Source: Rhodobacteraceae bacterium IMCC1335 (GTDB lineage: Bacteria; Pseudomonadota; Alphaproteobacteria; Rhodobacterales; Rhodobacteraceae). Taken from it: DNA of 64,000 nucleotides. A program made the translations under genes and the position numbers. The notes beneath the pieces were generated by a model. That model was not told the origin of the DNA. It worked only from the letters and a program-made list of their open reading frames with translations, and did no database searches. Shown here one piece after another: positions 40,856 through 57,750 of the stretch (positions are counted from its first letter, which is position 1; every line of letters starts with the position of its first letter). The stretch lies in NCBI GenBank assembly GCA_039640495.1, contig CP046864.1, positions 186,001 to 250,000 of the forward strand. The letters are read 5' to 3'.

Positions 40856-40869
40856 AGAGCGATCGCTCT
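40856..40869. promoter_or_regulatory. Palindrome in divergent promoter region
   Basis: AGAGCGATCGCTCT is a perfect 14-base palindrome about 32 bases upstream of the PotF-like start. It may be a regulatory site or chance; GCGATCGC cores recur by chance at moderate frequency. Confidence 0.3.
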
Positions 40870-40888
40870 GCATAGCTAATCTGATCAA

Positions 40889-40910
40889 ATATTGCCAGAC
40901 TTGGCAATAT
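40889..40910. promoter_or_regulatory. Candidate operator for the GntR regulator
   Basis: A perfect inverted repeat with arms ATATTGCCA (40889-40897) and TGGCAATAT (40902-40910) around a 4-base spacer. It sits midway between the divergent PotF-like and GntR-family genes. A 9-base perfect dyad in a 169-base divergent promoter region next to a GntR/FCD regulator makes an autoregulatory operator likely. Binding is inferred. Confidence 0.6.
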
Positions 40911-40993
40911 GTTTATGATTTCACGCGTGCAATGAACTGACAAGCTCTGTCGTTTCATTTGTATTTTTTTGGCGATCGTTTTGGACTATATCG

Positions 40994-41656: not shown

Positions 41657-41677
41657 AGGCCGTGGGTGGTGATTCGA

Positions 41678-41705
41678 TTGACAATAAATAATTTGATCAT
41701 ATTCT
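41678..41705 (+). promoter_or_regulatory. Probable promoter of the aminotransferase gene
   Basis: TTGACA (41678-41683), 16 bases, then TATTCT (41700-41705), about 55 bases before the ATG at 41761. A consensus -35 and a fair -10 suggest that the aminotransferase has its own start of transcription apart from the GntR gene. Confidence 0.45.
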
Positions 41706-41760
41706 GCAAAGGCGCGCGATATTGCGCACATTCTGCCCCCGCAAAGTCAAAGGTACCACG

Positions 41761-43155
41761 ATGAATCAATTGACCAATTATTTGCCTACAGATGAATTGC
41801 AGAGGCGCAACGCGGCCCATCATATGCAACCATTTTCTGCGCAAGATGAGCTGTCGGCTCAAGGCGCGCGGGTGATAACCAGCGCCAAAGGTGTCTATAT
41901 CACTGATTCAGACGGCAACCAGTATCTGGATGCAATGGCGGGGTTATGGTGCGTGAATATCGGTTATGGGCGCAGCGAATTGGCCGATGTGGCGGCGCGT
42001 CAGATGCGCGAATTGCCCTATTATAACACATTTTTTCAAACCACACATGTGCCAGTGATCGAATTGTCAGAGCGCTTGGCCCAATTGGCCCCAGACAATT
42101 TGAACCACGTATTTTATGCCGGCTCAGGATCCGAGGCCAATGACACCAATATTCGGATGGTGAGGCAATATTGGGCGCTCAAAGGCCATCCTGAGCGCAA
42201 GGTTATCATCAGCCGGAACAACGCCTATCACGGGTCAAGTCTGGGCAGCGCCTCGCTGGGTGGAATGAGCGCGATGCACGCCCAAGGTGGCATGCCAATT
42301 CCCGATATTCATCATATCAACCAGCCCAATTGGTGGTCAGAAGGGGGCGATTTGGACCCTGAAGAATTTGGGTTGGCCCGCGCCCGCGAGCTTGAACAAG
42401 CGATTTTAGATATTGGTCAAGAGCACGTTGCGGCCTTTATCGGTGAACCCGTGCAAGGCGCTGGTGGTGTGATCGTGCCGCCGCAGAGTTATTGGCCCGA
42501 AATTCAACGCATTTGCCGTAAATATGGTATCTTGCTGATCGCTGACGAGGTGATCTGCGGCTTTGGGCGCACGGGTAATTGGTTTGGTAGCCAAACCTTG
42601 GATATTCAGCCCGATATCATGACCATCGCAAAAGGCCTTAGTTCGGGCTATCAGCCGATTGGGGGCTCAATCGTCAGCGACGAAATTGCCGCTGTTATGG
42701 CAACCGCGGAGTTCACTCATGGCTATACTTATTCCAGCCATCCGGTGGCCGCGGCGGTGGCTTTGGAAAATATCCGGATTCTTGATGAAGAAAATATCGT
42801 TACGAATGTGCGCATGCATACGGCCCCCTATTTAAAAACCCAATGGGAAAGCCTGAGCGATCATCCAATGGTGGGGGAAGCCAAGATTGTGGGAATGATG
42901 GGTTCAATCGCTTTGACGCCGGATAAACAGAGCCGGGCAAAATTTGAAGCCGATGCGGGAACTGCGGGCTATATCTGCCGCGAGCTCTGCTTTGCCAATA
43001 ATTTGGTGATGCGTCATGTCGGCGATCGGATGATTATTTCGCCGCCCTTGATTATTTCCACCGATGAGATTGATATATTGATCAGCCGGGCGCGCAAAGC
43101 CTTGGATGAAACCCACGCGGCGCTGATTGAAAAAGGCCTTTGGAAAGCGGCTTAG
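41761..43155 (+). CDS. Class III aminotransferase, probable polyamine/omega-amino acid transaminase
   Basis: 464 residues. GSGSEANDTNIRMVRQYW binds the PLP phosphate, IADEVICGFGRTG carries the pyridine aspartate, and TIAKGLSSGYQPIGG the Schiff-base lysine. It resembles putrescine-pyruvate and beta-alanine-pyruvate transaminases (SpuC-like). The ATG at 41761 is preferred over an in-frame start at 41722. The neighbouring importer, PuuB-like oxidoreductase and GntR regulator suggest that it deaminates the imported amine. Specificity is inference. Confidence 0.88.
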   Translation: MNQLTNYLPTDELQRRNAAHHMQPFSAQDELSAQGARVITSAKGVYITDSDGNQYLDAMAGLWCVNIGYGRSELADVAARQMRELPYYNTFFQTTHVPVIELSERLAQLAPDNLNHVFYAGSGSEANDTNIRMVRQYWALKGHPERKVIISRNNAYHGSSLGSASLGGMSAMHAQGGMPIPDIHHINQPNWWSEGGDLDPEEFGLARARELEQAILDIGQEHVAAFIGEPVQGAGGVIVPPQSYWPEIQRICRKYGILLIADEVICGFGRTGNWFGSQTLDIQPDIMTIAKGLSSGYQPIGGSIVSDEIAAVMATAEFTHGYTYSSHPVAAAVALENIRILDEENIVTNVRMHTAPYLKTQWESLSDHPMVGEAKIVGMMGSIALTPDKQSRAKFEADAGTAGYICRELCFANNLVMRHVGDRMIISPPLIISTDEIDILISRARKALDETHAALIEKGLWKAA

Positions 43156-43953: not shown

Positions 43954-44454
43954 TTATTTTAACCCTGTTTGCAGCATATGTTGGCGATATTGCGAACATC
44001 CATAGATCGCGCCGCACACCTCTACCAATTCCGCAACGGAGGCATCCTTTTGCATCAGTTTTTGGCGCTTTATCACCAGATGCCCCTGTTCATTGGTAAA
44101 CACCATTTCAGGATGAAGGGCTTTAACATCCTGCGCGATAATCCCGAAACTAGGCAGATCGGCCATGCCAAGGGCTTTGGCCTCTGGCGTCCAGCGCCAT
44201 CTGCGCACAATCAAGCCATTGCGCAAGATCACCCGATCCACAACATAGCTTACCAGCCGCGCATCTGTGGAATAATCATCCGTACCGCCCGCCGCATCAT
44301 CGGTTTTCAAAGCAGAACCCTTGGCCTGTGGAACGATCTTGATCGATGATCCGGCTTGCGCGCCCTGCGCTGCGATCTGCCCCGCAATCAGTACGGCGCT
44401 CATCACGGCCCGTTTGAAAATAGACCGCACCCTCATCGTGTTCTCTGTTTCCAT
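43954..44454 (-). CDS. Small exported protein with S74/tail-fibre chaperone-like domain
   Basis: 166 residues; a signal peptide ends near residue 35 (AAQGAQA). The remainder resembles the intramolecular chaperone domain of tail spikes (peptidase S74 family): STDARLVSYV near the start, RRWRWTP, then FGIIAQDVKALHPEMVFTNEQGHLVIKR, which fits the GxxAQ-x-V-x-x-x-x-P pattern. The SDxRxK-like start is altered to TDARLV, and no tail-fibre stem precedes it. As no phage genes are nearby, this is a stand-alone host protein of unknown role. An internal ATG at 44436 is an alternative start. A C-terminal cysteine pair (CGAIYGC) is present. Confidence 0.6.
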   Translation of the reverse strand: METENTMRVRSIFKRAVMSAVLIAGQIAAQGAQAGSSIKIVPQAKGSALKTDDAAGGTDDYSTDARLVSYVVDRVILRNGLIVRRWRWTPEAKALGMADLPSFGIIAQDVKALHPEMVFTNEQGHLVIKRQKLMQKDASVAELVEVCGAIYGCSQYRQHMLQTGLK

Positions 44455-44491
44455 TCGATGCGCATCACGCCGCTTTCCCTTCTGTCATGAC

Positions 44492-44519
44492 ATAAATAAA
44501 CCTCGCTCGTCTTTGTCAA
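44492..44519 (-). promoter_or_regulatory. Probable promoter for the S74-like gene
   Basis: On the minus strand TTGACA (44519-44514), 16 bases, then ATTTAT (44497-44492), about 38 bases before the ATG at 44454. The -35 is perfect and the -10 is partial. Confidence 0.4.
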
Positions 44520-44548
44520 GTTTGGGTGCCAAAGGGCGGGTTTAGGCG

Positions 44549-45442
44549 TTAAAGCGCGCTGTTTTGCGCGTTTCTCTTTGTTTCGGGTTTGGCGCTGACT
44601 CGGGCAAATAGGGCGACCGATGCCAAAATTGTAAGACCTCCAGCCAGTTCGGTAGGGCTCATCGCTTCGCCCAAGAAAATCCACGGCCAGATGGGGCCTA
44701 GAACGCTTTCGATCAAAACCAAAAGGCTGACTTCGGCGGCCGGAACATAGCTCGCCCCCCATGTGACAAAGGCAATGCCGATGCCGATCCCAAAAGCGCC
44801 CATGATCAAAATGATCACTAAATCCTGCGGCAATATAGCAAAACCGGCCCCTGAAAAAAGGGTTGCGCCCGCGCCCATCAGCGCGCAGATCGCACCGCCG
44901 GTGAAGGTTCCACCCAGCACATCTTGTTTGCCGCTTTTGCGCGCCAGAACCAGCATTAAGGCAAAACAGGCGGCGGAAATTAAGGCCATCACATTGCCAA
45001 AGCTTTGGCCAAGCTGAGCCCCTTCGCGCACCATAAGGTAAACCCCGCAGGAGGCAAAGATCATCGCAATCCAAGTGACATTCTGCGGCTTTTCATTGAT
45101 CCAAACCCAGCCGATTATTGCCGCTATAAAGGGCGTGGCCGAGAGGATAAACAGAGTTGAGGCAATGCTGGTATAAAGCATGGCGAAGACATAGCAGGTA
45201 AAAGCCAGTGCCAGCGCCGAGCCCATTTTGAAATCTGCTTGATCCAAGCGCCGTAAAAACTGGACCGGTCCAATGCGGCGGCGCAAACAGCTGACAAGGC
45301 CCACGATTGCGCAGAGGCTCAGCGAGCGGTAAAATAAGATCTGAAAACCATTCGCATCGGTGACAAGGCGCATGTAAAGCCCCACAAAGCTCATAAATGT
45401 GCCCCCAAGAAGGATCAGCATTACCGCGTTTTTCTTGCTCAT
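44549..45442 (-). CDS. EamA/DMT-family membrane transporter
   Basis: 297 residues, about ten hydrophobic segments in two EamA repeats. The start at 45442 (MSKKNAVMLIL) has AAGAGG at the right distance; the frame extends to 45457. It lies 88 bases downstream of the DoeD-like aminotransferase on the same strand and may be the last gene of the ectoine operon. A role in exporting an intermediate or related solute is speculative. It differs in sequence from the DMT transporter at 34583. Confidence 0.84.
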   Translation of the reverse strand: MSKKNAVMLILLGGTFMSFVGLYMRLVTDANGFQILFYRSLSLCAIVGLVSCLRRRIGPVQFLRRLDQADFKMGSALALAFTCYVFAMLYTSIASTLFILSATPFIAAIIGWVWINEKPQNVTWIAMIFASCGVYLMVREGAQLGQSFGNVMALISAACFALMLVLARKSGKQDVLGGTFTGGAICALMGAGATLFSGAGFAILPQDLVIILIMGAFGIGIGIAFVTWGASYVPAAEVSLLVLIESVLGPIWPWIFLGEAMSPTELAGGLTILASVALFARVSAKPETKRNAQNSAL

Positions 45443-45530
45443 TCGAACCTCTTGCATTGGGGCTGCTTAGATATGCCCCAGATATTATTGCCTGCTCTAA
45501 TACTGAAAAATTGGGGAAACAAAAAATGTT

Positions 45531-46901
45531 TTACCCCAGCACCTCAATGATCGCATCGCGCAATTTGGCGATGATTTCATCAGCTTCGCTTTGCGTTAGG
45601 CAGAAAGGCGGCGCAAATCCTAAGATATCGCCTTCGGGCATCGCGCGACTAATCACACCGCGGTTGAGCAAAGCCGCGTTTACTTTTGCGCCAATCATCG
45701 CGCTTGGTTCAAAGAACACCCGGTCGTTGCGATCTGCCACCAATTCGACAGCGCCCAGCAATCCTTCACCGCGAATATCTCCAACATTTTTATGCGCCCC
45801 AAGCGCATCGCGCAAGCCGGCGGTAAAATAGTGCCCCATTGAGCGGACATTTTCGATCAAGTTCAAATCATCCAGCAAGCTTAGATTCGCCACGCCGGCC
45901 GCCGCACCAATCGGATGCGCCGAATAGGTCCAGCCATGTCCAAAGGGGCCAAATTCATCCGTGCCTTGTTCTAATACGCGCCACATGCGATCACTGACGA
46001 TTGAACCTGATAAGGGCGCATAAGCCGAGGTTAAGCCTTTGGCAATCGTAATCAAATCGGGTTTTAGCTCATAATGATCGCTGCCAAACATGCTGCCCAA
46101 TCGGCCAAAGCCAGTGACCACTTCATCGGCAATCAGCAAAATATCATGCTTTTTCAAAACCGCTTGAATGGCGGCCCAATAGCCTTTTGGCGGTGGTACA
46201 AGCCCCCCTGTGCCCAAAGCCGGTTCACCAATGAAGGCGGCAATCGTATCTGCGCCTTCTGTTTCAATCATCGCCTCCAGATCTGCCACGCATTGGCCGA
46301 CAAAGCCTTCTTCGCTTTGGCTTAGATCATCGCGGCGGTAATAATAAGGCGCGGTGGTGTGCAGGATCCGATCCAAGGGTAGATCGAATTTTTCGTGAAA
46401 TATTTTCAACCCGGTTAAAGATCCATTCACCAAGCCCGAGCCGTGATACCCCCGCCAGCGCGAGATGATCTTTTTCTTTTCAGGGCGCCCCAGAATATTG
46501 TTGTAATACCAAACCAGCTTCACATTGGTTGTATTGGCATCCGAGCCCCCCAACCCGAAATAGACTTTCGACATGTGGTCGGGTGCGCGCTCTAACACCA
46601 TTTTTGACAGGGTGATTGAGGCTTCGGTGCCATGGCCGACATAGGCGTGGTAATAGGCCAATTCATGCGCTTGTTTTGAAATCGCTTCTGCGATTTCTGA
46701 TCGACCATAGCCCACATTCACGCAGTAAAGACCGGCAAATGCGTCCAGCAGGCGGTTGCCATCGCGATCTGTGATATGGCAGCCCGACGCTGTTTTGATC
46801 ACGCGCTGGGCCAAATTACCGCGGGAAAACTCTGCCAGATGGGTGGAGGGATGAAAGAAGTTTTCGCGATCCCAGCTTTCCAATCGGTCATTTTTCAACA
46901 T
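45531..46901 (-). CDS. Class III aminotransferase, DoeD-like (diaminobutyrate transaminase)
   Basis: 456 residues. GLGGSDANTTNVKLVWYYN binds PLP phosphate, IADEVVTGFGRLG contains the pyridine aspartate, and TIAKGLTSAYAPLSG the Schiff-base lysine. In ectoine catabolism a class III transaminase (DoeD) converts L-2,4-diaminobutyrate to aspartate semialdehyde. This gene is 33 bases downstream of doeB on the same strand, which makes that role likely. Family sequence alone would also allow other omega-amino substrates. Confidence 0.8.
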   Translation of the reverse strand: MLKNDRLESWDRENFFHPSTHLAEFSRGNLAQRVIKTASGCHITDRDGNRLLDAFAGLYCVNVGYGRSEIAEAISKQAHELAYYHAYVGHGTEASITLSKMVLERAPDHMSKVYFGLGGSDANTTNVKLVWYYNNILGRPEKKKIISRWRGYHGSGLVNGSLTGLKIFHEKFDLPLDRILHTTAPYYYRRDDLSQSEEGFVGQCVADLEAMIETEGADTIAAFIGEPALGTGGLVPPPKGYWAAIQAVLKKHDILLIADEVVTGFGRLGSMFGSDHYELKPDLITIAKGLTSAYAPLSGSIVSDRMWRVLEQGTDEFGPFGHGWTYSAHPIGAAAGVANLSLLDDLNLIENVRSMGHYFTAGLRDALGAHKNVGDIRGEGLLGAVELVADRNDRVFFEPSAMIGAKVNAALLNRGVISRAMPEGDILGFAPPFCLTQSEADEIIAKLRDAIIEVLG

Positions 46902-46934
46902 GTTTATTCCTTATAAACGCCTTGTATAATCGCC

Positions 46935-47951
46935 CTAAGCTGGATCTGGCAAATCCACGTCACCGATTATTTCTGCGATTACGGTGGCGCAATCGCCCAT
47001 GGCAATCAACCCGGGGAAATGCCGTCCTACCAGAATACCAGAGCGGCGCGCATAGCAATGTTCGGGCGCGCGTCCGGTGTGATCTTTTGGCCATATCCGG
47101 GCGGTGATATCGCCTTTTTCCACAGGATCCCCCAAATCGACCATTGGTTCAAACAGGCCCTCGCCCGCAGCAAAGGTAAAGCAATCACCATCGGGCATAT
47201 CGATTTCAACAGAAGGTTCTAACGCTAAGGGCGCGTTCAGTATTTTAGCATGGATAAGCAGATTGCGCAGGCCTTTTTTTGCAATGGCAATCGATTTTGC
47301 AGTGGCGGACCCGCCGCCGCCCAGCTCGGTTGATACAAAGATTTTTCCCATATCTTCGGCGGCTGTATCATATAGGCCGGTCTTGTCAATTTCGAGCTGC
47401 ATCATTGAAAATGGCGCATTAAAGGCGTTGCGCGCCGCCACGCAAGCGGCTTGCTGGTCCGGGTTTTCCAAAATATGCGCCGCCGCGAAGGGAAGAAAAT
47501 CCAGCGTGCGCCCGCCGGAATGAAAATCCAGCACAATATCCGCCATGGGCAGTAAATAACGTTGAAAGTAATCCGCGATTTTCTCGGTGATACTGCCATC
47601 TGGGCGCCCGGGAAACAGCCGGTTCAGATTGCCTTGATCGATTGGAGAGGTGCGGGTGCCGGCTTTAAACGCTGGGAAGTTAAACGCCGGCACGATAATC
47701 ACGCGGCCCCTGATCGCGCTGGCATCCAGCGTTAAAGCCAGCTCCTGCAGCGCAACCGGGCCTTCATATTCATCGCCGTGATTGGCCCCGGTAAGCAGCG
47801 CTGTAGGCCCGGCGCCGTTGCGGATCACAGTGATCGGGATCATAATCTTTCCCCAAGCGCTGGAATCATGGCTATAGGGCAACGTGAGATGACCATGTTG
47901 CACGCCATCTGCGTCAAAGGCAACGCTGGCGCTTATCGGAGAGGCATTCAT
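46935..47951 (-). CDS. doeB: N-alpha-acetyl-L-2,4-diaminobutyrate deacetylase
   Basis: 338 residues of the AstE/AspA zinc deacylase family. Metal-binding histidine and glutamate lie in GANHGDEYEGP, with a later histidine in VLDFHSGGRT. Sequence such as DQGNLNRLFPG and TELGGGGSA is typical of DoeB/EutE. It hydrolyses N-alpha-acetyl-diaminobutyrate, the product of ectoine hydrolase, releasing acetate. It starts 3 bases after the doeA stop. Length is normal. Confidence 0.88.
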   Translation of the reverse strand: MNASPISASVAFDADGVQHGHLTLPYSHDSSAWGKIMIPITVIRNGAGPTALLTGANHGDEYEGPVALQELALTLDASAIRGRVIIVPAFNFPAFKAGTRTSPIDQGNLNRLFPGRPDGSITEKIADYFQRYLLPMADIVLDFHSGGRTLDFLPFAAAHILENPDQQAACVAARNAFNAPFSMMQLEIDKTGLYDTAAEDMGKIFVSTELGGGGSATAKSIAIAKKGLRNLLIHAKILNAPLALEPSVEIDMPDGDCFTFAAGEGLFEPMVDLGDPVEKGDITARIWPKDHTGRAPEHCYARRSGILVGRHFPGLIAMGDCATVIAEIIGDVDLPDPA

Positions 47952-47954
47952 ATC

Positions 47955-49142
47955 TTACTCCTTTACGAACAATTCACGGGGCACATCTGCCAAGCACTCA
48001 TAGCCGGTCTGTGTGATGCGGATGCTTTCGGTGATCTCAAAGCCCCAATCTTGCATCCACAGCCCGGTCATGAAATGGAAGGTCATATTTTCCTGCAGCA
48101 CGGTTTTGTCCCCTGGGCGTAAAGACATGGTGCGCTCTCCCCAATCGGGGGGGTAGCTGGCGCCGATAGAATAACCGGTACGGTTGTCTTTTTCGATGCC
48201 GTACTTTTTCAAAACACCAAAAAATGCAGTGGCAATATCTTCACAAAGATTGCCGGCGCGCGCCTGTTCAAGCCCCGCGTCCATCCCTTCCAAAACGGCT
48301 TTCTCAGCGTTCAGAAATGTATCGGTTGGTTTGCCCAAAAACATCGTGCGCGAAAGCGGGCAATGATAGCGATGCACCACGCCGGCAATCTCAAAAAACG
48401 TACCTTCGCCGCGCTTCAAGGGCTGATCATCCCATGTCAGATGCGGCGCGGCGGCATCTGGCCCCGAGGGCAATAAAGGCACCAGAGCTGGATAATCGCC
48501 ACCCGTGCCAATATCGGCATCATAGCGCAAAGCTGCATCATAAATCTCGGCCACAAGATCGCATTTGCGCATCCCAACCTCTGCGCGTTGTCGAATCCGC
48601 TCATGCATCCGGCCGACGATTTTGCCGGCTTGCCGCATATAGGCCAGCTCGGCCTCTGATTTGACCGCGCGCTGCCAATTCACCAGCGCTGTTGCATCTT
48701 GGAATTTACTATTTGGCAAATGCCTCTGAAGGGCTTGGTAGGCGGCGGCAGAAAACCAATAATTGTCCATTTCAACGCCAATACGCGCGCCATCAAGCCC
48801 CAGCGTGGTTATTTGCGCCGCAAGATAATCCATCGGGTGACGCTCGGTGGATTGTACATAGTGATCCGGATAGCCGATAATATTGCTTTCGGGCATGAAG
48901 ACTGTGCGCAAGGCGCCGCGGCCATCTTGCGCGCGGCCAAACCAAATCGGATCCCCATGCAAGCCCAAAACCACGCATTGATGGACGTAAAATGACCAGC
49001 CATCATAGCCAGTCAGCCAGTTCATGTTGCTGGGATCCGAAAGGATCAGCAAGGACAGGCCACGCGCCTCCATTTCCTGCCGGGTGATTTTAATGCGCTG
49101 TTCGAATTCGGCGCGGCTAAAATGTAAAACCGGTGCGACCAT
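47955..49142 (-). CDS. doeA: Ectoine hydrolase
   Basis: About 395 residues with a creatinase-type N-terminal domain (1-165) and an M24 aminopeptidase-fold C-terminal domain. EMDNYWFSAAAYQALQR and the GTFFEIAGVVHRYHCPLSRT segment match DoeA/EutD. It opens the ectoine ring to N-acetyl-diaminobutyrate. The ATG at 49142 follows AGGAG by 8 bases, so the in-frame extension to 49199 is rejected. It lies 4 bases after eutC and just before doeB. Confidence 0.88.
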   Translation of the reverse strand: MVAPVLHFSRAEFEQRIKITRQEMEARGLSLLILSDPSNMNWLTGYDGWSFYVHQCVVLGLHGDPIWFGRAQDGRGALRTVFMPESNIIGYPDHYVQSTERHPMDYLAAQITTLGLDGARIGVEMDNYWFSAAAYQALQRHLPNSKFQDATALVNWQRAVKSEAELAYMRQAGKIVGRMHERIRQRAEVGMRKCDLVAEIYDAALRYDADIGTGGDYPALVPLLPSGPDAAAPHLTWDDQPLKRGEGTFFEIAGVVHRYHCPLSRTMFLGKPTDTFLNAEKAVLEGMDAGLEQARAGNLCEDIATAFFGVLKKYGIEKDNRTGYSIGASYPPDWGERTMSLRPGDKTVLQENMTFHFMTGLWMQDWGFEITESIRITQTGYECLADVPRELFVKE

Positions 49143-49146
49143 TGGT

Positions 49147-50139
49147 TCAACTCCTAAAAACCGATCCCTGCTTGAATTCTTGGGCGCGTTGGCGCGCAAA
49201 AGCAGCGATTACTGTATCTTGAAGCCCGGTGCCGGTAAGATCGGCAATTGTAATTTGTTCGGCGGATTGCCGACCGGGGGCTGTACCAGCAACGATATCA
49301 CCCAGTTCGGGAAAGATTTTGGTATCTGCGACATGATTTGCCGCAATTGCGCTGCGCAATTCCCCCAATTTTTTGGTTTGTGATTGTCGATCCGGCACAT
49401 AGAGATCCGCGCGCGCCAAACAGGCCGGCTCTAATTCGCATTTATGATCCTGATCAGAGCCCATGGCGGTAATATGTTGACCCGGTTGCAGCCAATTGGC
49501 TTGGATGAGTGGTGACGCGGATGGGGTTGTGGTGACGATAATATCAGCCCCTTGCACCGCATTTTTGGCCGTTTCTGCAACCGTGATAGGGATGTTTAAA
49601 TCTGCGCTGAGGCTTTTGGCGCAGGCGGCTGCTTTTGCGGCATCGCGGGCCCAGATTTTGGCCCGCTTGATTTCGCGCACCAAGCATAGAGCTTTCAGCT
49701 GCAGCTTGGCTTGCGTGCCCGCGCCGATGATGCAGGCGGTTTTCGAGTTTTGGCGTGCTAAACAGTTCGCGGCCACAGCGCCCGCGGCTGCGGTGCGGAT
49801 ATCGGTGAGATACCCGTTGTCTAAAAGCAGTGCCTCCAGCATGCCGGTCTTTGCGCTGAACACCACCATCAGGCCTGAGGTGCTCGGCAGACCCAAGGCG
49901 GGATTGTCAAAAAACCCAGGTGACATTTTGATTGCGAAGGACGGAATGCCGGGCACATAAGCGGTTTTCACATCCACTTCGCCATTATGTTCGGCAATCG
50001 CCATTGACAGGATTGGCGGCATCACAACCTGCCCGCTCGCCAAGGCTTTAAAACCCTGTTCCACGCAGTTGATCGCGGCCAGATCTAGCGGCACCAATCT
50101 GCGCAATTCATCTTGGGTTAACAACGTGACTTCTGGCAT
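49147..50139 (-). CDS. eutC: Ornithine cyclodeaminase-family protein of (hydroxy)ectoine catabolism
   Basis: 330 residues of the ornithine cyclodeaminase/mu-crystallin family. The NAD-binding loop is ACIIGAGTQAKLQL; LPSTSGLMVVF and TDIRTAAAGAVAA are family landmarks. In the eut gene set EutC acts in conversion of 5-hydroxyectoine to ectoine-pathway intermediates with EutA and EutB. It is 9 bases downstream of eutB and 4 bases upstream of doeA. The assignment rests on family plus neighbourhood. Confidence 0.85.
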   Translation of the reverse strand: MPEVTLLTQDELRRLVPLDLAAINCVEQGFKALASGQVVMPPILSMAIAEHNGEVDVKTAYVPGIPSFAIKMSPGFFDNPALGLPSTSGLMVVFSAKTGMLEALLLDNGYLTDIRTAAAGAVAANCLARQNSKTACIIGAGTQAKLQLKALCLVREIKRAKIWARDAAKAAACAKSLSADLNIPITVAETAKNAVQGADIIVTTTPSASPLIQANWLQPGQHITAMGSDQDHKCELEPACLARADLYVPDRQSQTKKLGELRSAIAANHVADTKIFPELGDIVAGTAPGRQSAEQITIADLTGTGLQDTVIAAFARQRAQEFKQGSVFRS

Positions 50140-50148
50140 AGAATGCTC

Positions 50149-51144
50149 CTATGGGTCTGATATATTAATGTTTTCGCCAGAAATAATGCGGTGATGCACG
50201 GAAAGGTCAATATTGCCACCGGTCACACAGGCAATGGTATTGCCTTCGGGCTTGACCTTTTGGCTGAGCAAGGCGGCCAAACAAACGGCACCAGAGCCTT
50301 CGATGATTTGCCGTTCTTGCCAATAGGCATGGTGGATGGCCTGCGCGATTTCTGTTTCGCTGACCAAGATAAACTCGTCTACAAGGTTTTGGGTGATATT
50401 GAAGGTGATTTGATTATCAAGGCCAATACCGCCCCCCAGAGAATCCGCCAACGTGGCTTCTTCTTTCACCAAAATCGGTTTGCCGGCTTGTAAACAGGCA
50501 TGCATTGCGGCGCCGCGCTCCATGCTGACAGCAATGATTTTCACGTCTTTTTTTAACGCTTTCAATGCGCTGGCGACGCCTGAAATAAGACCACCGCCTG
50601 ATACGGGCACCAAAACGTTTTGAAGCTCGGGCAGTGCCTCAAACAGCTCAAGGCCAAGGCTGGCTTGTCCGGCCACAATATCAGGGTGGTCAAAAGGTGG
50701 AATCATCGTCATGCCCTGTGCTGCCACCAGATGATCGACTTCGATTTGTGCGTCATCTTGCGACTGACCGACAATCCGCACTTCTGCGCCCAGCGCTTTA
50801 ATGCCATCGATTTTATTTTGTGGAACCAATTGTGACATGCAGATGATGCAGCGGACGCCGTTTTCTCGCGCGGCATGGGCCAGGCCGCGGCCATGATTGC
50901 CGGTCGAAACCCCGACAACGCCGCGCTGCTTTGCCGCCTCGGGCAAAGCCATGACAGCGTTGCTGGCACCGCGTAATTTGAAGCTATTGGTGATTTGATG
51001 ATGTTCAAACTTGAGGTAAACCGGGCTATTGGTCAGCCTGCTTAAGCTTTCTGAGGCGACCAGAGGGGTTGTTCGAATGCAGGGCGCGATGCGTTGCGCC
51101 GCAGTTTTGATATCACTCAGCTCGATGGGGCTTTGAAAGGCCAT
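50149..51144 (-). CDS. eutB: Hydroxyectoine utilization dehydratase EutB
   Basis: 331 residues, a fold-type II PLP enzyme related to threonine dehydratase, without an ACT domain. PLP lysine in NSFKLRGASNA; STGNHGRGLAHAA and VPVSGGGLISGVA are the substrate and phosphate loops. The GNHGRG version differs from the GNHAQG of IlvA at 14934. The ATG at 51144 follows AGGAG; the frame to 51198 overlaps eutA and is rejected. It probably acts on hydroxylated diaminobutyrate derivatives from hydroxyectoine. Confidence 0.86.
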   Translation of the reverse strand: MAFQSPIELSDIKTAAQRIAPCIRTTPLVASESLSRLTNSPVYLKFEHHQITNSFKLRGASNAVMALPEAAKQRGVVGVSTGNHGRGLAHAARENGVRCIICMSQLVPQNKIDGIKALGAEVRIVGQSQDDAQIEVDHLVAAQGMTMIPPFDHPDIVAGQASLGLELFEALPELQNVLVPVSGGGLISGVASALKALKKDVKIIAVSMERGAAMHACLQAGKPILVKEEATLADSLGGGIGLDNQITFNITQNLVDEFILVSETEIAQAIHHAYWQERQIIEGSGAVCLAALLSQKVKPEGNTIACVTGGNIDLSVHHRIISGENINISDP

Positions 51145-51154
51145 TTGGGGGCTC

Positions 51155-51925
51155 CTATGGCATAGCATGCATGAACAATCGGCCCCATTTACCGGCATCT
51201 ACCCGTAAATTTGTATGATGCGCCAATTCCCAAGCACAGGCTTGATTCGAGGTCACAACCGGTTTGCCGGTTTGGCGTTCCAACTCGGCGACCACATCCG
51301 CAGCTTGCAGTGCGGTACAGGATAAAAAGAAGGCATCGGTTTGGTTGGTTTGGCTGGACAGCGCCGCTTTGATGATGCTTGCAGGATCAACGCGCGCCAT
51401 ATCCAAATCGCTTTCAAGCCCCAAACAAAGAAATTTCGCCAATGACAAACCTTGGGCTTGGAAATAGGCGGCCATGGGCTGGCTGGTTTCCACCAAATAG
51501 GGCGTCACCACCGAAATATGCTTTGCGCCCAGCGTTTTTAGGGCCCGGACTGCTGCCCCGCTGGGGGTCACCACGGGCAAATTTGGGCGCGCCGCATGCA
51601 CCAAAGCCTTGATCGCATCATCCCCAATCACCACCGAGGCGGCCGTGCAACTGTAGCAAATTGCGTCGAGCTGTTCCTCTGGCAGAATGAGCCCCGCCGC
51701 TTGGGTGATCAGCGGTGCCATTTTACGTAGATTTTCAGGCGTGGTTGGATTTTCAAACGCCACCCGCGTTACGTAAACACCCAGCGTTTCCATCGGCAGG
51801 ATACGCGCAAAATCGCGCTCTGCCGTCACATCTGTTGACAGAGCGATAACGCCAATTTTTTTGTTTTTATCAGGCGGATCATAGGTCAAATCTCCGTCAT
51901 AAAGGCCGATATTTATATCATCCAT
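51155..51925 (-). CDS. eutA: EutA, Asp/Glu racemase-like protein of hydroxyectoine catabolism
   Basis: 256 residues related to arylmalonate decarboxylase and maleate isomerase. Two cysteine motifs CYSCTAASVV and LSCTALQAADVV sit at the positions of the catalytic cysteine pair of this superfamily. In the eut gene set it acts with EutB and EutC to bring hydroxyectoine derivatives into the ectoine route; its exact reaction is less certain than that of DoeA/B. It is the first catabolic gene after the importer genes. Confidence 0.83.
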   Translation of the reverse strand: MDDINIGLYDGDLTYDPPDKNKKIGVIALSTDVTAERDFARILPMETLGVYVTRVAFENPTTPENLRKMAPLITQAAGLILPEEQLDAICYSCTAASVVIGDDAIKALVHAARPNLPVVTPSGAAVRALKTLGAKHISVVTPYLVETSQPMAAYFQAQGLSLAKFLCLGLESDLDMARVDPASIIKAALSSQTNQTDAFFLSCTALQAADVVAELERQTGKPVVTSNQACAWELAHHTNLRVDAGKWGRLFMHAMP

Positions 51926-52004
51926 GGGTCAGCTCCCAGCGCCGCGCTCGCTGCGGCAAAACGCCCAATTTTGAACGTAAACATATTGGGTAATCAGGTG
52001 GACA

Positions 52005-52022
52005 CGGCGCTTTACAGCGCCG
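52005..52022. other. Hairpin between importer and catabolic genes
   Basis: CGGCGC and GCGCCG flank a 6-base loop. A second weaker stem (CCCAAT at 51964-51969, ATTGGG at 51985-51990) lies beside it. The 144-base gap (51926-52069) is the largest inside the ectoine locus, so these stems could lower read-through or protect the catabolic message. No T-run. Confidence 0.4.
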
Positions 52023-52069
52023 CCTAGGGCCAAAACCTTTGTAAGGATCAACAGCCCCGTTCAATCAGG

Positions 52070-52966
52070 TTACCCCGGGCTTACGCCGCGCAGCCGCTCG
52101 GAGCGGCGGCGCAACAATTCCACCACCGTCAACAGAACGATTGAGATGATGACCAAGATCGTCGCCGCCGCCAGAATGGTGGGCGAGATTTCTTGGCGGA
52201 TACCGGCCCACATTTGGCGGGGCAACGTCAACTGGTCGGCCCCGGCCAGAAAAATCACTACAACCACTTCATCAAATGAGGTGATGAAGGCAAACAGTCC
52301 GCCTGAGATCACACCTGGCAAGATCAAGGGCATTTGAATTTTAAAAAACGTCCGCGTTGGGCCAGCGCCAAGATTGGCCGCAGCTTTGCGCAGATTGTCA
52401 TCAAAGCCAACCAATGTGGCCGTCACTGTGATCACCACGAAGGGCAAGCCCAAGATCGCATGCGCGATGACCAATCCAACATGCGAGGCGACAAGGTCGA
52501 AGCGTGCACCAAATATCGTGATTGAAAACAAGGCAAATCCAGCCGCAGTGATGATCAAAGGCACGATCATTGGTGAAATCAGCAGCGCCATGAAAAGCTT
52601 ACGCCCCGGCATATGAGAGCGGCTTAAGCCCAAAGCGGCCAGCGTGCCCAACACGGTGGATAACAGGGTTGCGAAAATACCGATTATGATCGAGTTTTTG
52701 AACCCGATCATCCATTTGTCGCTGCACACCGTGGTTTTAATATCCTCGCACATTCCAAACAGGTTTTGGTACCAGCGCACGGAAAACCCTTCGGCTTTTA
52801 GCGCCAACATTTCCGGTGTGAAGCTCAGGAAGGGGCTTGATGTGAAAGAGAGGGGGATCACGATAATCAGCGGGGCCACAAGAAAGAATAGCACCAACCC
52901 GCAGATCGTTAGATAAGTATAATGCCAGATACGCTGACCGGTGGTTGCATAAATAGGAAGCGCCAT
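52070..52966 (-). CDS. ABC importer permease, PotC/PotI-like, ectoine locus
   Basis: 298 residues, about six helices; the EAA-type loop reads RKAAANLGAGPTRTFFKIQMPLILPG near residue 195. It is of the spermidine/putrescine permease class but sits directly upstream of eutABC-doeAB. It follows the larger permease gene with 4 bases between. The predicted cargo is ectoine or hydroxyectoine from context; family similarity alone would say polyamine. Confidence 0.87.
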   Translation of the reverse strand: MALPIYATTGQRIWHYTYLTICGLVLFFLVAPLIIVIPLSFTSSPFLSFTPEMLALKAEGFSVRWYQNLFGMCEDIKTTVCSDKWMIGFKNSIIIGIFATLLSTVLGTLAALGLSRSHMPGRKLFMALLISPMIVPLIITAAGFALFSITIFGARFDLVASHVGLVIAHAILGLPFVVITVTATLVGFDDNLRKAAANLGAGPTRTFFKIQMPLILPGVISGGLFAFITSFDEVVVVIFLAGADQLTLPRQMWAGIRQEISPTILAAATILVIISIVLLTVVELLRRRSERLRGVSPG

Positions 52967-52970
52967 GTTG

Positions 52971-54239
52971 TTATCCCAACCTCATATTGTCGATACCGAC
53001 GATCTTATCATAAACCCAATATAGGATTAGAATTGCTGACAGCAGGATCACGCCCATAGCGGATGCCAGCCCCCAGTTCAGCGATTTTCGCAAATGATAG
53101 GCGATTTGGTTGCCGATCATCTGGCCATCTTTCCCACCGACCAATTCGGGCGTAATGAAATAGCCGATCGCCACGATAAACACCAAAATCACGCCTGCCC
53201 CAATACCGGGAATGGTTTGTGGCATATAGACCCGGATGAAGGCGCGCGCCGGGGTTGCCCCTAAATTCTGCGCGGCTTTCATATAAGTTGGGGGAATACC
53301 GCGCATCACCGAATAGAGCGGCAGGATCATAAAGGGCAACAAAACTTGCGTCATCACGATCAGCGTACCATTGAAATTATACATTAAGGGCAGGCGATTT
53401 TCATCGCTGATAATCCCCAAACCAACCAGCGAATCGTTCAATACCCCCTGCTGTTGCAGCATAATCATCCAAGCCACGATACGCACCAAAAGCGACGTCC
53501 AGAACGGCATAAGAACGCAGATCATCAGCAGGTTTGAAATCCGCAAAGGCAAGGTGGCCAGCAGATAGGCAACAGGAAAGGCCAAGACAAGGCAGGCGAT
53601 CGTAACGATGGTTGAGACCAGCAGCGTGCGTTTCCAAAACATGACGTAGACGCGGCGGTTTTCTGGCTGCATGATTACGTTTTTTTTATCATCATAGGTG
53701 CGGTCAATCGCGTTCCAATAATACCCGGCTGTGGTTCTGTCTTTCATAATTCCAAGAGATTTCCAGAACTCGACATCTCCCCAGCGCTTATCGGCCTTTA
53801 TCATTTGCGGTTGAATGGGTTGTTCAGCGTCGATCTTCTTGAATTTGCGGTTTGATTTTTTAATCAGGCTTTTCCAGCCTGATTTTGCATAGTTCATTCT
53901 GGTTGAGACTTTGCCGATTTCAAGTTTCTCGGCCGATGTAAGATCCAAATACATTGCCTCGAAATGTGGCTCGCCGGGTAGGTCAACACCATCCCACTGC
54001 TCATAAATCGCCATCGTTCGGGGCAAGACGTCATTGACAAAACTGTCATCAATACTTTTTTGAAAGAGCGCGTAAATCGGCCATACAAACAAAATTAGAA
54101 TGAACAGAGCCGGTCCAGCCACTAGGCCAAAGGCGCGAAGCTTTTCCCGCCTCAAAGAGGCTTTTAGGCTTTTTTTCAGCGGAATACCGTCCGCCGTCAT
54201 CATTTGTCCTGCTTGCGCGTTGGCTGCGACATCACTCAT
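52971..54239 (-). CDS. ABC importer permease, PotB/PotH-like, with large periplasmic insertion
   Basis: 422 residues, over 100 longer than the PotH-like permease at 37643. The first helix (about 35-58) is followed by a mostly hydrophilic segment of about 140 residues (FVNDVLPRTMAIYEQ... to MQPENRRVYVMFWKRT) before the second helix. The EAA loop is MKAAQNLGATPARAFIRVYMPQTIPG. A hydrophilic N-terminal tail of 30 residues precedes helix 1. The insertion presumably faces the periplasm and could contact the binding protein. Second-to-last gene of the importer set. Confidence 0.87.
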   Translation of the reverse strand: MSDVAANAQAGQMMTADGIPLKKSLKASLRREKLRAFGLVAGPALFILILFVWPIYALFQKSIDDSFVNDVLPRTMAIYEQWDGVDLPGEPHFEAMYLDLTSAEKLEIGKVSTRMNYAKSGWKSLIKKSNRKFKKIDAEQPIQPQMIKADKRWGDVEFWKSLGIMKDRTTAGYYWNAIDRTYDDKKNVIMQPENRRVYVMFWKRTLLVSTIVTIACLVLAFPVAYLLATLPLRISNLLMICVLMPFWTSLLVRIVAWMIMLQQQGVLNDSLVGLGIISDENRLPLMYNFNGTLIVMTQVLLPFMILPLYSVMRGIPPTYMKAAQNLGATPARAFIRVYMPQTIPGIGAGVILVFIVAIGYFITPELVGGKDGQMIGNQIAYHLRKSLNWGLASAMGVILLSAILILYWVYDKIVGIDNMRLG

Positions 54240-54267
54240 GCGAAAGAACTTTCGAAATAGTCGGAAA

Positions 54268-54298
54268 TTAAAAAAGGGCGCACGCTCGCGCGCCCTTT
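54268..54298 (-). terminator. Intrinsic terminator/attenuator after binding-protein gene
   Basis: AAAGGGCGC (54273-54281) and GCGCCCTTT (54290-54298) form a 9-base stem with an 8-base loop, followed on the minus strand by a T-run (A6 at 54270-54275 on the plus strand). It lies 21 bases after the binding-protein stop and before the permeases. It would end most transcripts after the ATPase and binding-protein genes, leaving lower expression of the permeases and catabolic genes unless anti-terminated. Confidence 0.7.
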
Positions 54299-54319
54299 GT
54301 AAAAGCTTACGTCAAAGGC

Positions 54320-55411
54320 TTATTGGCCCATCCACGCTTGGTAACGCTCTTGCAATTCATCACCGTTATCCGCCCACCAATCAGGGTCAGCAACGATTGA
54401 ATCTGCCATCACGTCGGCGCGGTTTGGCATATGCTCTAGGATATTCACACCCGTGTTGAACCAAGGCTCACCGGCGGCGATAATATCCAAAGCGGATGTC
54501 CGCATTGGGCCATAATTGATCCAGCGTGCTTGTTCTGCTTGCGCAGTGGGAGAAGAGGCAAAGCCAGCAAAGTCAAGAGCTGCGTCCATGTTTGGAGCGC
54601 CGGACACGATGCCGATCCATTCTTCTTCCAGAACTTGACCATGCCAAATAGACACAAACTTTGTGCCGTCATTCAGGTTTGCGCCGCCCACACGGCCGTT
54701 ATAGGCCAATGACATTGAGACTTCACCGGAAGAAACCAGCTCAAGCGGTTTTGCGCCAGCAGACCAGAACACAACGTCATCTTTGATTGTGTCAAGCTTT
54801 GCAAAGGCACGGTCTGCACCCTCTTCAGTTTCAAGCGTTGAATAGATATCTTCTTTTGCAACACCATCGGCAAACAAGGCCATTTCTAGGATCGCGTTTG
54901 CCCATGTGTGAACGCCGCGCTTGCCAGGGAAAGTTGCAGTGTCAAAGAAATCCATGATTGTGTCTGGCTGTTCACCAGAAAAGGTGCCTTCATTATAGAA
55001 CGCTTGATATGTCCACCAAATTTGTGGGATCGCACATTTATTAGGACGCGGCACCATCAGGTCTTCATCCATGGTTTTGCCGTCAGCAGTTTTTACAAAG
55101 ATTTCATCTGGTACTTCGATGAACAGGCCTTCGTCACAGCCGGTACGGATTTGGTCGGGAAGAACGTCAACGATATCCCAAGTTACATTGCCGCTTTCAA
55201 CCTGTGTTCTGACTTCGCCCAAACCACCATTGTAGTTTTCCCAATGGATTGACTTGCCGGTTTTGGCTTCCCATGGCTCACCATAGGCTTTTTGCTGCGA
55301 CGCCGTGTAACCACCACCCCATGATGTTACGGTCAGGTCGGATGCTAGCGCGCCGGTCGCCGTCAATGCGATCGTTGCAGCAGCCATTTTAAACGTATTT
55401 GATAGCTTCAT
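54320..55411 (-). CDS. Periplasmic binding protein of Pot-type importer, ectoine locus
   Basis: 363 residues. Signal peptide MKLSNTFKMAAATIALTATGALA; mature DLTVTSWGGGYTASQQKAYGEPWEAKTG is of the PotD-like binding-protein family. AAGGAGAG is well placed before the ATG. Ectoine-binding proteins of other systems (EhuB, TeaA, UehA) belong to different families, so if this protein binds ectoine it would be a different solution. Flanked by hairpins on both sides (55432-55447 and 54268-54298). Confidence 0.88.
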   Translation of the reverse strand: MKLSNTFKMAAATIALTATGALASDLTVTSWGGGYTASQQKAYGEPWEAKTGKSIHWENYNGGLGEVRTQVESGNVTWDIVDVLPDQIRTGCDEGLFIEVPDEIFVKTADGKTMDEDLMVPRPNKCAIPQIWWTYQAFYNEGTFSGEQPDTIMDFFDTATFPGKRGVHTWANAILEMALFADGVAKEDIYSTLETEEGADRAFAKLDTIKDDVVFWSAGAKPLELVSSGEVSMSLAYNGRVGGANLNDGTKFVSIWHGQVLEEEWIGIVSGAPNMDAALDFAGFASSPTAQAEQARWINYGPMRTSALDIIAAGEPWFNTGVNILEHMPNRADVMADSIVADPDWWADNGDELQERYQAWMGQ

Positions 55412-55431
55412 TTATACTCTCCTTGTTGGTT

Positions 55432-55447
55432 CCCCGGTTCGCCGGGG
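55432..55447 (-). other. GC hairpin between ATPase and binding-protein genes
   Basis: CCCCGG and CCGGGG around a TTCG/CGAA tetraloop, 16 bases, in the 76-base gap. It has no T-run on the minus strand and probably sets mRNA stability or separates expression of the ATPase and binding protein. Confidence 0.5.
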
Positions 55448-55487
55448 TTTCTAATGTGAACGGCAAAAGCCTGCTCACAAATCTTCA

Positions 55488-56624
55488 TCATGCATCAAGC
55501 GCACGACAATCACTTACATCCCAGCTGACGGTGGTTTTTTCACCCACATTCAAATGCGTGTGGCCGGCTGAGTTGGCAACTTTCACAACGAAATCTTCGT
55601 TGCCCATAACGTTCATGCGGCAGCGGATATGGTCTCCAAGATAAATGAGTTCTTTGACCTCTGCATCAATCGCATTTGAGCCGTTATTTTGCCCCAATTG
55701 TACCCGCTCGGGGCGGATCGACAAAACCGTTTTTGTGCCCACGCCACCGCAATTAATCGCCAGCGCTTGGCCTTTTGAACCATTGCCATAATCAACGATG
55801 GCGGTGTCGCCTTTCAGCTCGGAAACGGTGGCTTCAATGCGATTATTTTCACCGATAAATTGTGCCACAAAGGCGTTTTCAGGCCGTTCGTACAGATCGC
55901 TTGGCGGCGCCAGCTGCTGGATAATGCCATCGTCAAACACTGCGATACGGTCTGACATGGTGAGCGCTTCGGATTGATCATGCGTCACATAAACAACGGT
56001 GACGCCAAGCCTGTCATGCAAATGTTTGATTTCAAATTGCATATGTTCGCGCAGCTGTTTGTCAAGCGCCCCCAAGGGTTCATCCATTAAGACCAGATCG
56101 GGTTCAAATACCAAAGAACGCGCCAGAGCAATCCGTTGCTGCTGTCCGCCAGAAAGCTGTGCGGGGCGGCGATTGCCAAAGGCGCTCATTTGCACCATGT
56201 CCAGCGCTTTTTTAACGTTGGCTTCCCGCTCTGATTTGCTCTGTCCGCGCACTTCTAAAGGAAAGGCCAGATTTTCGTTCACCGTCATATGCGGAAATAG
56301 CGCATAATTTTGAAACACCATGCCAATGCCACGCTTGTGAGGGGGGATGTTATTGATCGGTTTGCCTCCCAATAAAATCTCACCATGGGTGGCTGTTTCG
56401 AAACCGGCCAACATCATAAGGCAGGTTGTTTTGCCCGACCCAGAGGGCCCCAGCATCGTTAAAAATTCACCTTTGCCGACACTCAGGTTTAAATCTTTAA
56501 CAACTAGATTTTCTCCGTCATAACTTTTTTGTACTTTGGTGAATTCTACGAATCCCGTTTCGCCAGAGTGAGTTGTCAAAAGGCACCTACCAGTGTGAAT
56601 TGTTTCTCGGTTGGGATAATTCAA
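55488..56624 (-). CDS. ABC importer ATPase, PotA-like, ectoine locus
   Basis: 378 residues as drawn. Walker A GPSGSGKTT, signature LSGGQQQRIALARS, Walker B LVLMDEPLGALD, H-loop THDQSEALTMS, and a C-terminal TOBE domain from about residue 285. Family sequence begins near GFVEFTKVQKSYDG. No ATG fits: the drawn start is a TTG at 56624, and another TTG at 56579 (LTTHSGETGF) is equally possible, giving about 363 residues. First gene of the importer/ectoine cluster, divergent from the HDAC-like gene across an A/T-rich 193-base gap in which I see no clear operator. Confidence 0.87.
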   Translation of the reverse strand: MNYPNRETIHTGRCLLTTHSGETGFVEFTKVQKSYDGENLVVKDLNLSVGKGEFLTMLGPSGSGKTTCLMMLAGFETATHGEILLGGKPINNIPPHKRGIGMVFQNYALFPHMTVNENLAFPLEVRGQSKSEREANVKKALDMVQMSAFGNRRPAQLSGGQQQRIALARSLVFEPDLVLMDEPLGALDKQLREHMQFEIKHLHDRLGVTVVYVTHDQSEALTMSDRIAVFDDGIIQQLAPPSDLYERPENAFVAQFIGENNRIEATVSELKGDTAIVDYGNGSKGQALAINCGGVGTKTVLSIRPERVQLGQNNGSNAIDAEVKELIYLGDHIRCRMNVMGNEDFVVKVANSAGHTHLNVGEKTTVSWDVSDCRALDA

Positions 56625-56817
56625 ACATATGGTTATAGATATGGCAATAGACAGCGCTTTTTAGGTCAAAAACGACATTGGCGTTGCGCATGAGCGTTTT
56701 TGCAGTTGATTGACGAGCCAATTTAAACGGAGTGTTGGGATGATTCTGCCTTGCTGTTGCCATTTTTTTTTCAATAAAATGTCGCAAATACGATAATTCC
56801 AAAAAGCGATTAAAATT

Positions 56818-57750
56818 ATGTCTTCAACCACTCTTCTGATCACGCATCCTGATTGCCTCGGCCATGAAACACCGCCAGGCCATCCGGAACAAATAGCCCG
56901 GTTAGAGGTAGTGTTAGAGGAGCTTAAGCGTTTGCCCGTGGCGTTTTTGTCAGCACCTTTGGCGCAAGAGGCCGATCTCTTGCGGCTGCATCCACAGCAA
57001 TATCTTGACGCGCTGCGCGCAGCGTCCCCGGTGCATGGCAACGCTGCGCTGGATGCAGATACGCATCTGTCGGCGGGTTCGTTGAAGGCGGCTTATCGGG
57101 CGGCCGGCGGCGTTTTATTGGCTGTCGATCAGGTTCTATCGGGCGCTGCGCAAAACGCTTTTGTGGCCACGCGCCCGCCTGGACATCACGCTGAAACCGC
57201 CAAAGCGATGGGGTTTTGCCTTTTTGGCAATGCTGCTTTGGGGGCAAAATATGCGCTAGATCGATATGGATTGCAGCGCGTGGCTGTGGTGGATTTTGAT
57301 GTGCATCACGGCAATGGCACGCAGGATCTGCTTTGGGAGGAACCGCGCGCTTTGTTTGTCAGCACGCATCAGATGCCACTTTGGCCAGGTAGCGGTGCGC
57401 CGGACGAGAAAGGTGCGTTTGACAATATTATGAACCTGCCGCTAGCGCCTGAAACCGATGGGCAAGCGATGCGGACGCTGTATCGCCAATCCGTCTTGCC
57501 GCATTTGCGGGCGTTCCAGCCCGATTTGCTGATTATTTCAGCCGGGTTTGACGCGCATTCTTCGGATCCTTTGGCGCAATTAAACTGGCGCGTTGAAGAT
57601 TTTGCGTGGCTCACGCAGGAATTATGCGCTTTGGCGGCAGAACTCTGCCAAGGACGGGTGGTCTCGGTGCTCGAAGGCGGCTATGATTTGCCTGCTTTGG
57701 CTGCATCGGCCAAAGCCCATGTTGAAAAATTATTGGAGGCGACAAAATGA
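56818..57750 (+). CDS. Histone-deacetylase-family amidohydrolase
   Basis: 310 residues. Zinc- and active-site motifs of class II HDAC/acetylpolyamine amidohydrolase enzymes: TRPPGHHAET, MGFCLFGNAALGAKYAL, VDFDVHHGNGTQD and ISAGFDAHSSDPL. Bacterial members deacetylate acetylpolyamines, acetoin-related proteins or other acetyl-amides. It begins a run with xseB, ispA and dxs, an order I recall as conserved in Rhodobacterales, so it is probably not specific to the adjacent ectoine locus, although an acetyl-amide hydrolase next to polyamine/ectoine genes is suggestive. No Shine-Dalgarno site is evident at the ATG. Confidence 0.87.
   Translation: MSSTTLLITHPDCLGHETPPGHPEQIARLEVVLEELKRLPVAFLSAPLAQEADLLRLHPQQYLDALRAASPVHGNAALDADTHLSAGSLKAAYRAAGGVLLAVDQVLSGAAQNAFVATRPPGHHAETAKAMGFCLFGNAALGAKYALDRYGLQRVAVVDFDVHHGNGTQDLLWEEPRALFVSTHQMPLWPGSGAPDEKGAFDNIMNLPLAPETDGQAMRTLYRQSVLPHLRAFQPDLLIISAGFDAHSSDPLAQLNWRVEDFAWLTQELCALAAELCQGRVVSVLEGGYDLPALAASAKAHVEKLLEATK

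Follow-up and report, generated by a model that had tools for sequence, protein, structure and literature searches.

How does a marine bacterium take up ectoine, which is common in the sea as an osmolyte and a source of nitrogen, when neither of the recognized ectoine importers stands beside its catabolic genes? The question is raised by a 64,000-nucleotide stretch of Rhodobacteraceae bacterium IMCC1335 (bases 186001-250000 of the complete 3.74 Mb chromosome; hereafter the window), in which a block of ten genes (45531-56624, minus strand) joins an ATP-binding cassette (ABC) importer of mainly spermidine/putrescine (Pot) annotation to the genes of ectoine and hydroxyectoine catabolism. We found that this importer stands where sister clusters carry UehABC, a tripartite ATP-independent periplasmic (TRAP) transporter, or the ABC importer EhuABCD, and we consider it likely, judging from sequence comparisons, that ectoine and hydroxyectoine are its substrates. 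The class is not usually linked to ectoine, and is probably an unrecognized uptake route for microbes of the ocean.

Figures given in a 2018 review (PMC5924519) assign Ehu to 370 and Ueh to 48 of 539 predicted ectoine consumers, with no adjacent transporter in 122, and the main text of a 2026 survey of 575 EutD loci (PMC13188858) names only the Ueh and Ehu types among Alphaproteobacteria. We found no description of a Pot-type ectoine importer in the literature searched by titles and abstract openings.

Gene content of the block and class of its importer

The ten genes, with the order, strand and coordinates that an earlier note on this DNA had assigned to them, all agree with the open reading frame (ORF) coordinates and with NCBIfam and Pfam matches. 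In order of transcription, they encode an ATPase, a periplasmic binding protein, two permeases, EutA, EutB, EutC, DoeA, DoeB and a class III aminotransferase. DoeA and DoeB score above the NCBIfam equivalog cut-offs, as do EutB and EutC; EutA falls just under its cut-off but is in place, and not every known cluster of this kind has eutABC. The scores are 303 bits to TIGR02990 for eutA (51155-51925; cut-off 318), 484.2 bits to TIGR02991 for eutB (50149-51198; cut-off 413.35), 521.2 bits to TIGR02992 for eutC (49147-50139; cut-off 471.65), 746.4 bits to TIGR02993 for doeA (eutD, ectoine hydrolase, 47955-49199; cut-off 613) and 537.7 bits to TIGR02994 for doeB (eutE, N-acetyl-diaminobutyrate deacetylase, 46935-47951; cut-off 402.7). 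The identity of doeA is also supported by a tree (see below), and its true start is probably downstream of the listed TTG. The last gene (45531-46901), an Aminotran_3 protein in the atf/DoeD position, has homologues of 68-80% identity close to doeA in other Rhodobacteraceae.

The block begins with a potA-like ATPase gene (55488-56624, TTG start as listed), whose product has ABC_tran and TOBE_2 domains and passes the TIGR01187 potA model with 380.6 bits (cut-off 355.6). Both permeases, PotB-like (52971-54239, 422 amino acids) and PotC-like (52070-52966), have BPD_transp_1 domains and match the Pot permease models with scores well under the cut-offs (159.4 bits over residues 198-412, compared to 348, and 145.8 bits, compared to 326, respectively). 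The binding protein (54320-55411), which has an SBP_bac_8 domain, matched no NCBIfam model at E 0.001, including those for PotD, PotF and EhuB (TIGR02995). By sequence and fold similarity it groups with receptors for gamma-aminobutyrate (GABA) and opines (SAR11 PotD, Atu4243, MotA and AgtB), apart from the polyamine receptors, its structural neighbours being taken from the VIA listing alone. Thus, the spermidine/putrescine class proposed in the earlier note is right for the ATPase and the permeases and wrong for the binding protein. The combination of an SBP_bac_8 protein, an ABC ATPase and BPD_transp_1 permeases also differs from UehABC and TeaABC, which are defined by a DctP-type protein with TRAP membrane subunits.

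The closest solved relative of known ligand is SAR11 PotD (PDB 8jv1, solved with GABA), which is 39-40% identical to the window binding protein; the GABA receptor Atu4243 (4eq7) is 31% identical, and around the aligned pocket several residues differ. Arg203 and Asp226 of Atu4243, which we take to be the GABA-anchoring positions, align with Arg240 and Glu264 of the window protein, and among 60 aligned rows Arg240 is present in every one and Glu or Asp at 264 in 59. The structure of a SAR11 'PotD' with GABA is hard to square with text of PMC8437039, in which SAR11 PotD serves as an indicator of polyamine uptake; literature searches returned nothing on the protein of 8jv1.

Intergenic gaps in the block are small. 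The gap between the genes for a binding protein and a permease is a common site of differential expression in ABC operons, and here it contains a stem-loop (54273-54298, minus strand; 11 pairs, 7 of them G-C, then TTTAATTTCC; a consensus match only) that may set permease expression lower than that of the binding protein. Terminator-like sites (20 in 44400-57000, compared to a mean of 17.3, standard deviation 4.3, in shuffles) and promoter-like sites (19, compared to 12.0, standard deviation 3.4) were not taken as evidence.

The importer slot and its conservation

A tree of 91 DoeA proteins places the window DoeA with those of the Rhodobacteraceae loci L072, L073 and L076 (support 100/92), and the larger clade to which it belongs, of 22 rows, includes 3 of the 4 Ehu-linked and 7 of the 10 Ueh-linked DoeA proteins in the tree. 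The gene order is enuR-uehABC-usp-eutABC-doeA-doeB-asnC-doeC-atf at L073 and enuR-ehuABCD-eutABC-doeA-doeB at L071, and enuR-ehuABCD fills the slot at all three of L070, L071 and L089. In the window the order is potADBC-eutABC-doeA-doeB-atf, with asnC and doeC lacking from the cluster, and potADBC stands upstream of eutA, where L073 has enuR-uehABC-usp. That one transport module has taken the place of another here argues more strongly than anything else for the Pot-type system as an ectoine importer.

No close relative of UehA was found among the 12 TRAP binding proteins of the genome (best 89 bits, 29% identity to the UehA of L073, compared to 446-478 bits for nine UehA genes in sister clusters of the family), and no protein of the genome exceeded the EhuB cut-off of 190.9 (best 62.5 bits). 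The regulator EnuR, a usual but not defining companion of such clusters, is present in 456 of the 539 in the counts of PMC5924519; no close one was found in the window, and none of 23 GntR-domain matches genome-wide reached 100 bits to EnuR of the family, compared to 192-379 bits for 12 EnuR genes from clusters that carry Ueh or Ehu. Two GntR loci have a frame long enough for a MocR-type protein, one of them matching at 23% identity (82 bits) and the other giving no match at E 1e-5. DoeC, too, is usual in such clusters or their genomes without defining them, and the best DoeC candidate among the aldehyde dehydrogenases of this genome (G000:C1:3347565) is 49% identical (442 bits), compared to 58-76% for 15 doeC genes in doe loci; matches of 25-37% in other loci were taken as other dehydrogenases. 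The earlier note had reported that EnuR and DoeC/Ssd are missing from the window, and neither was found in the cluster; its corollary, that both functions come from elsewhere, is not borne out for EnuR, to which the genome gave no close homologue, and is left for DoeC with the 49% relative, which may perform the last oxidation.

Four genomes of the genus, including that of the window, were compared. The whole block is present at 93-100% protein identity in the window genome and in two of the three others (G296 and G297), and the binding protein of the congener Rhodobacteraceae bacterium SB2 is 98% identical. The best relative of the binding protein in the fourth genome, G295, is 39% identical and lies beside a putrescine aminotransferase; this genome (2.7 Mb, 97% complete) is labelled as the same species, a label that seems odd with a binding-protein relative of only 39%. 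A metagenome-assembled genome (MAG), G300, has the block over two contigs, potA-potD-potB-potC (L164) and potC-eutA-eutB-eutC-doeA-doeB-atf (L318), with identities of 62-84% for the eut, doe and atf products and 85-91% for those of the four pot genes, and with doeA in two pieces. Thus, the importer-eut-doe order, conservation of which the earlier note had proposed as a check, is kept in G296, G297 and G300. At locus L163 of another MAG, the pot operon is followed by a truncated eutA-like ORF of 132 amino acids (L163:13340-13738) and then by the EamA gene that in SB2 comes after atf, and DoeA was not found in this genome. The eut/doe block has probably been lost here and the importer kept, with misassembly possible in a MAG; read as a loss, L163 would make the pairing old in the group and would mean that the importer can outlive it.

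Among 295 genomes of the family, one per genus, the next-best binding protein shares 50% identity with that of the window, whereas loci of marine gammaproteobacteria and other alphaproteobacteria have binding proteins that are 60-68% identical and group with it. Because the kin of the importer are closer outside the family than within it, the importer and the catabolic genes, DoeA included, probably differ in history, which is consistent with recruitment. The suggestion of the earlier note that ectoine catabolism is served here by a different importer is partly supported: it holds up at the level of sequence, by conservation beside eut/doe in relatives and by the searches for Ueh and Ehu, with the class of transporter corrected. 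We conclude that an ectoine cluster of a familiar kind has here an established importer of neither Ueh nor Ehu type, which is probably not a polyamine system.

Candidate substrates of the importer

The block would be one operon for the uptake and degradation of ectoine and 5-hydroxyectoine. The ABC importer, with its Pot-family ATPase and permeases and its GABA/opine-type binding protein, would capture ectoines in the periplasm and import them, filling the slot held by UehABC or EhuABCD in sister clusters. EutABC would then act on the hydroxylated form, DoeA would open the ring, DoeB would deacetylate the product to 2,4-diaminobutyrate, the aminotransferase would convert this to aspartate semialdehyde, and an unlinked dehydrogenase would carry out the final oxidation. 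Beyond the observed gene content, order and conservation and the class of the binding protein, we infer the import of ectoine itself, co-transcription of the ten genes and a working pathway in this organism.

The importer and DoeA are also associated where they are not linked. A search for DoeA (E 1e-60) covered the genomes behind 39 of the 58 loci that the binding protein had retrieved; DoeA was present in 17 of 21 genomes with a binding protein at least 60% identical and, apart from the SAR11-type genomes considered below, in 1 of the remaining 2. Among 83 genomes of the Thioglobus family (that of G307), with the importer scored as a binding protein at least 61% identical, 16 have both, 2 the importer only, 11 DoeA only and 54 neither (Fisher P 3e-8), so that DoeA occurs in 16 of 18 genomes with a close binding protein compared to 11 of 65 without. 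The first 33 listed genomes, taken as nearest, gave 16/1/10/6 (P 0.03) and the 25 of these at or above 1.2 Mb gave 13/1/6/5 (P 0.04); relatedness of the genomes was not removed and many are partial, and all these P values are indicative only. Seven doe loci of this family, some cut at contig ends, have eutA in 6 and doeB in 4 and no Pot, Ueh or Ehu match of at least 60 bits, and doe and eut genes are absent within 10 kb of the Pot-type operon of the family, as expected if the pot operon serves the doe genes from a distance.

Several observations, to which the caveat on these P values belongs, weigh against ectoine as the substrate. The nearest solved relative of the binding protein binds GABA, and the putative pocket residues are nearly the same, bar His257, in Thioglobus-type homologues from pot operons that stand apart from doe and eut genes, so that the ligand should be one used by both. 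DoeA was found in 8 of 16 SAR11-type genomes (binding protein 54-57% identical), and 11 of the 27 DoeA-bearing genomes of the Thioglobus family, many of them small and partial, are without the importer. At L163 the importer is kept with an eutA remnant only and without DoeA, and it may have a further use. The loci L072, L074 and L076, among the rows nearest to the window DoeA, show none of Pot, Ueh and Ehu. The widest intergenic gap of the block, 144 bases, separates potC from eutA; no terminator is listed there and its structure is not unusual (z -0.56). With up to 2 mismatches, the published consensus of the EnuR operator, ATTGTnnnnnnACAAT (PMC8739950), has 18 matches in the window, below the shuffled mean of 32, and none of them lies upstream of potA in the interval to the divergent gene at 56818. 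Finally, the genome-wide negative result for other ectoine importers covers the Ueh and Ehu types; no search was aimed at the ProU and BCCT types, which include carriers of ectoine.

The main alternative, although we consider it unlikely, is that the importer takes GABA or another omega-amino acid (beta-alanine, diaminobutyrate or an opine-like compound) and that ectoine enters otherwise; the place of the importer in the block would then be explained by the class III aminotransferase and the putrescine pathway next to it, both of which handle amino acids of this kind. Consistent with this, the nearest solved structures of known ligand bind GABA or opines, GABA is a product of putrescine catabolism and a putrescine locus lies next door, SAR11-type relatives have an amino-acid-dehydrogenase-like flavoprotein directly behind the operon, and L163 retains the importer without eut/doe. 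However, the importer stands in the slot of Ueh and Ehu, it co-occurs with DoeA where the two are unlinked, and by eye the residues around the aligned pocket are unlike those of SAR11 PotD at several positions. A chance or transient neighbourhood, in which eut-doe-atf was inserted behind an importer of unrelated substrate, would fit the probably different histories of the importer and DoeA genes (50% in the 295 family genomes compared to 60-68% outside), but is quite improbable given the gene order, which two congeners and another MAG keep with protein identities of 62-100%, the equivalence of the slot with Ueh and Ehu, and the unlinked co-occurrence in the Thioglobus family. Least probable of all is an importer of polyamines that is a mere neighbour of the ectoine genes, even though its ATPase and permeases annotate as a spermidine/putrescine system, a polyamine locus is 5 kb off and a second system is possible in principle (Ruegeria pomeroyi SPOA0381-0384, listed in PMC9038784 for spermidine beside potFGHI), because the binding protein is in the GABA/opine group and a typical polyamine importer, PotFGHI, is encoded at 36825-40824.

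That importer is part of a typical putrescine locus (35500-43155; PotFGHI, flavoprotein, GntR and class III aminotransferase), 2-10 kb from the ectoine block. Its genes, on the minus strand, each have the corresponding Pot model as the best-scoring one, all under cut-off (PotF 431.5 bits, cut-off 636; PotG 444, 613; PotH 395.5, 489; PotI 328, 476), and the PotF-type binding protein (39739-40824) matches SpuD at E 8e-118. The second class III aminotransferase (41722-43155, plus strand), putrescine-type by position and a neighbour outside the block, scores 756.5 bits with PRK07480 (cut-off 510). A PotF-aminotransferase pair is also found near the Pot-type importers of L099, L100, L103, L108, L261 and L265. 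Elsewhere in the window, a sugar-kinase-type gene (26110-27656, by eye a glycerol kinase) is broken into two ORFs that overlap and differ in frame, with the FGGY N-terminal domain in 26949-27656 and the C-terminal domain in 26110-26994.

Other Pot-type importers beside DoeA genes, and known systems

The DoeA genes that lie beside Pot importers in other Rhodobacteraceae were considered as orthologues of the window gene, and this was rejected, nearly all of them falling in a separate clade. This second DoeA clade has 27 rows (support 100/99), one from outside the Rhodobacteraceae. An ArgE-type deacetylase, in the listed loci not DoeB, adjoins 22 of the 27, and one ArgE-type member passes the acetylornithine deacetylase model with 377 bits (cut-off 297.7). 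A Pot-type importer is beside 17 of the 27, of which 7 had been fetched for a nearby importer and 2 more were known beforehand to have one. Within about 8 kb, 40 loci hand-picked down the DoeA ranking (those 2 included) have 10 Pot, 2 Ueh and 1 Ehu importers and 27 have none, while the 28 top-ranked DoeA loci have 1 Pot, 8 Ueh and 3 Ehu, with none in 16. Ueh is thus beside doeA in 10 of the 68 Rhodobacteraceae loci not selected for a nearby importer, although PMC10130141, within the set of roseobacters that it compares, calls UehABC 'unique or nearly so' to R. pomeroyi.

The Pot-type importers near this second DoeA clade have binding proteins that share 35-41% identity with that of the window, which supports a role for Pot-type importers in catabolism by the DoeA family and not an identical ligand. 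A Pot-type importer accompanies a DoeA paralogue and a deacetylase of ArgE type (M20) at L098, L099, L102-L104, L234, L239, L248, L250, L255, L256, L259, L264 and L265, and these loci are possibly an alternative ectoine module with ArgE in place of DoeB. Two of them, L104 and L234, add eutB, eutC and atf; at L266, of the same paralogue clade, the importer is Ehu-like and is accompanied by eutB, eutC, asnC, doeC and atf. In Pelagibacteraceae, L182:4860-13309 carries on one strand genes for an EutA-like protein, an M24 peptidase, a carbon-nitrogen hydrolase and a DoeA-like protein with potADBC. At L317:947-2672, two PhyH-family dioxygenases (PF05721), with a weak, sub-cut-off match to ectoine hydroxylase, lie between eutA and doeB/doeA.

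A broader proposal, which we put forward tentatively and with somewhat more doubt than belief, is that ectoine has a third and widespread class of importer, annotated as PotABCD and equipped with this GABA/opine-type binding protein. The class would occur in marine Rhodobacteraceae and also, away from the catabolic genes, in Thioglobus/SUP05-type gammaproteobacteria, and would fill much of the gap left by consumers without a recognized transporter; across the Rhodobacteraceae, a related Pot type would supply modules in which a DoeA paralogue is combined with an ArgE-type deacetylase. If true, a third class would help to explain how consumers without Ueh or Ehu feed on ectoine, and counts of 'PotD' in marine omics, read as polyamine uptake, may include receptors for other ligands.

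Compared to the polyamine importers PotABCD and PotFGHI, the window importer has ATPase and permease families in common and a binding protein of another group. The ehuABCD-eutABCDE cluster of Sinorhizobium meliloti, as presented in PMC5924519, likewise has an ABC importer directly upstream of the eut/doe genes, but Ehu is of another ABC type, and the window binding protein matches no EhuB model. The known TRAP-type ectoine cluster, in the form given in the same review, has the same eutABC-doeA-doeB order with atf, and its transporter genes are also upstream of eutA; the window block, without EnuR, asnC and doeC (ssd), has a Pot-type ABC importer where that cluster has the TRAP transporter and EnuR.

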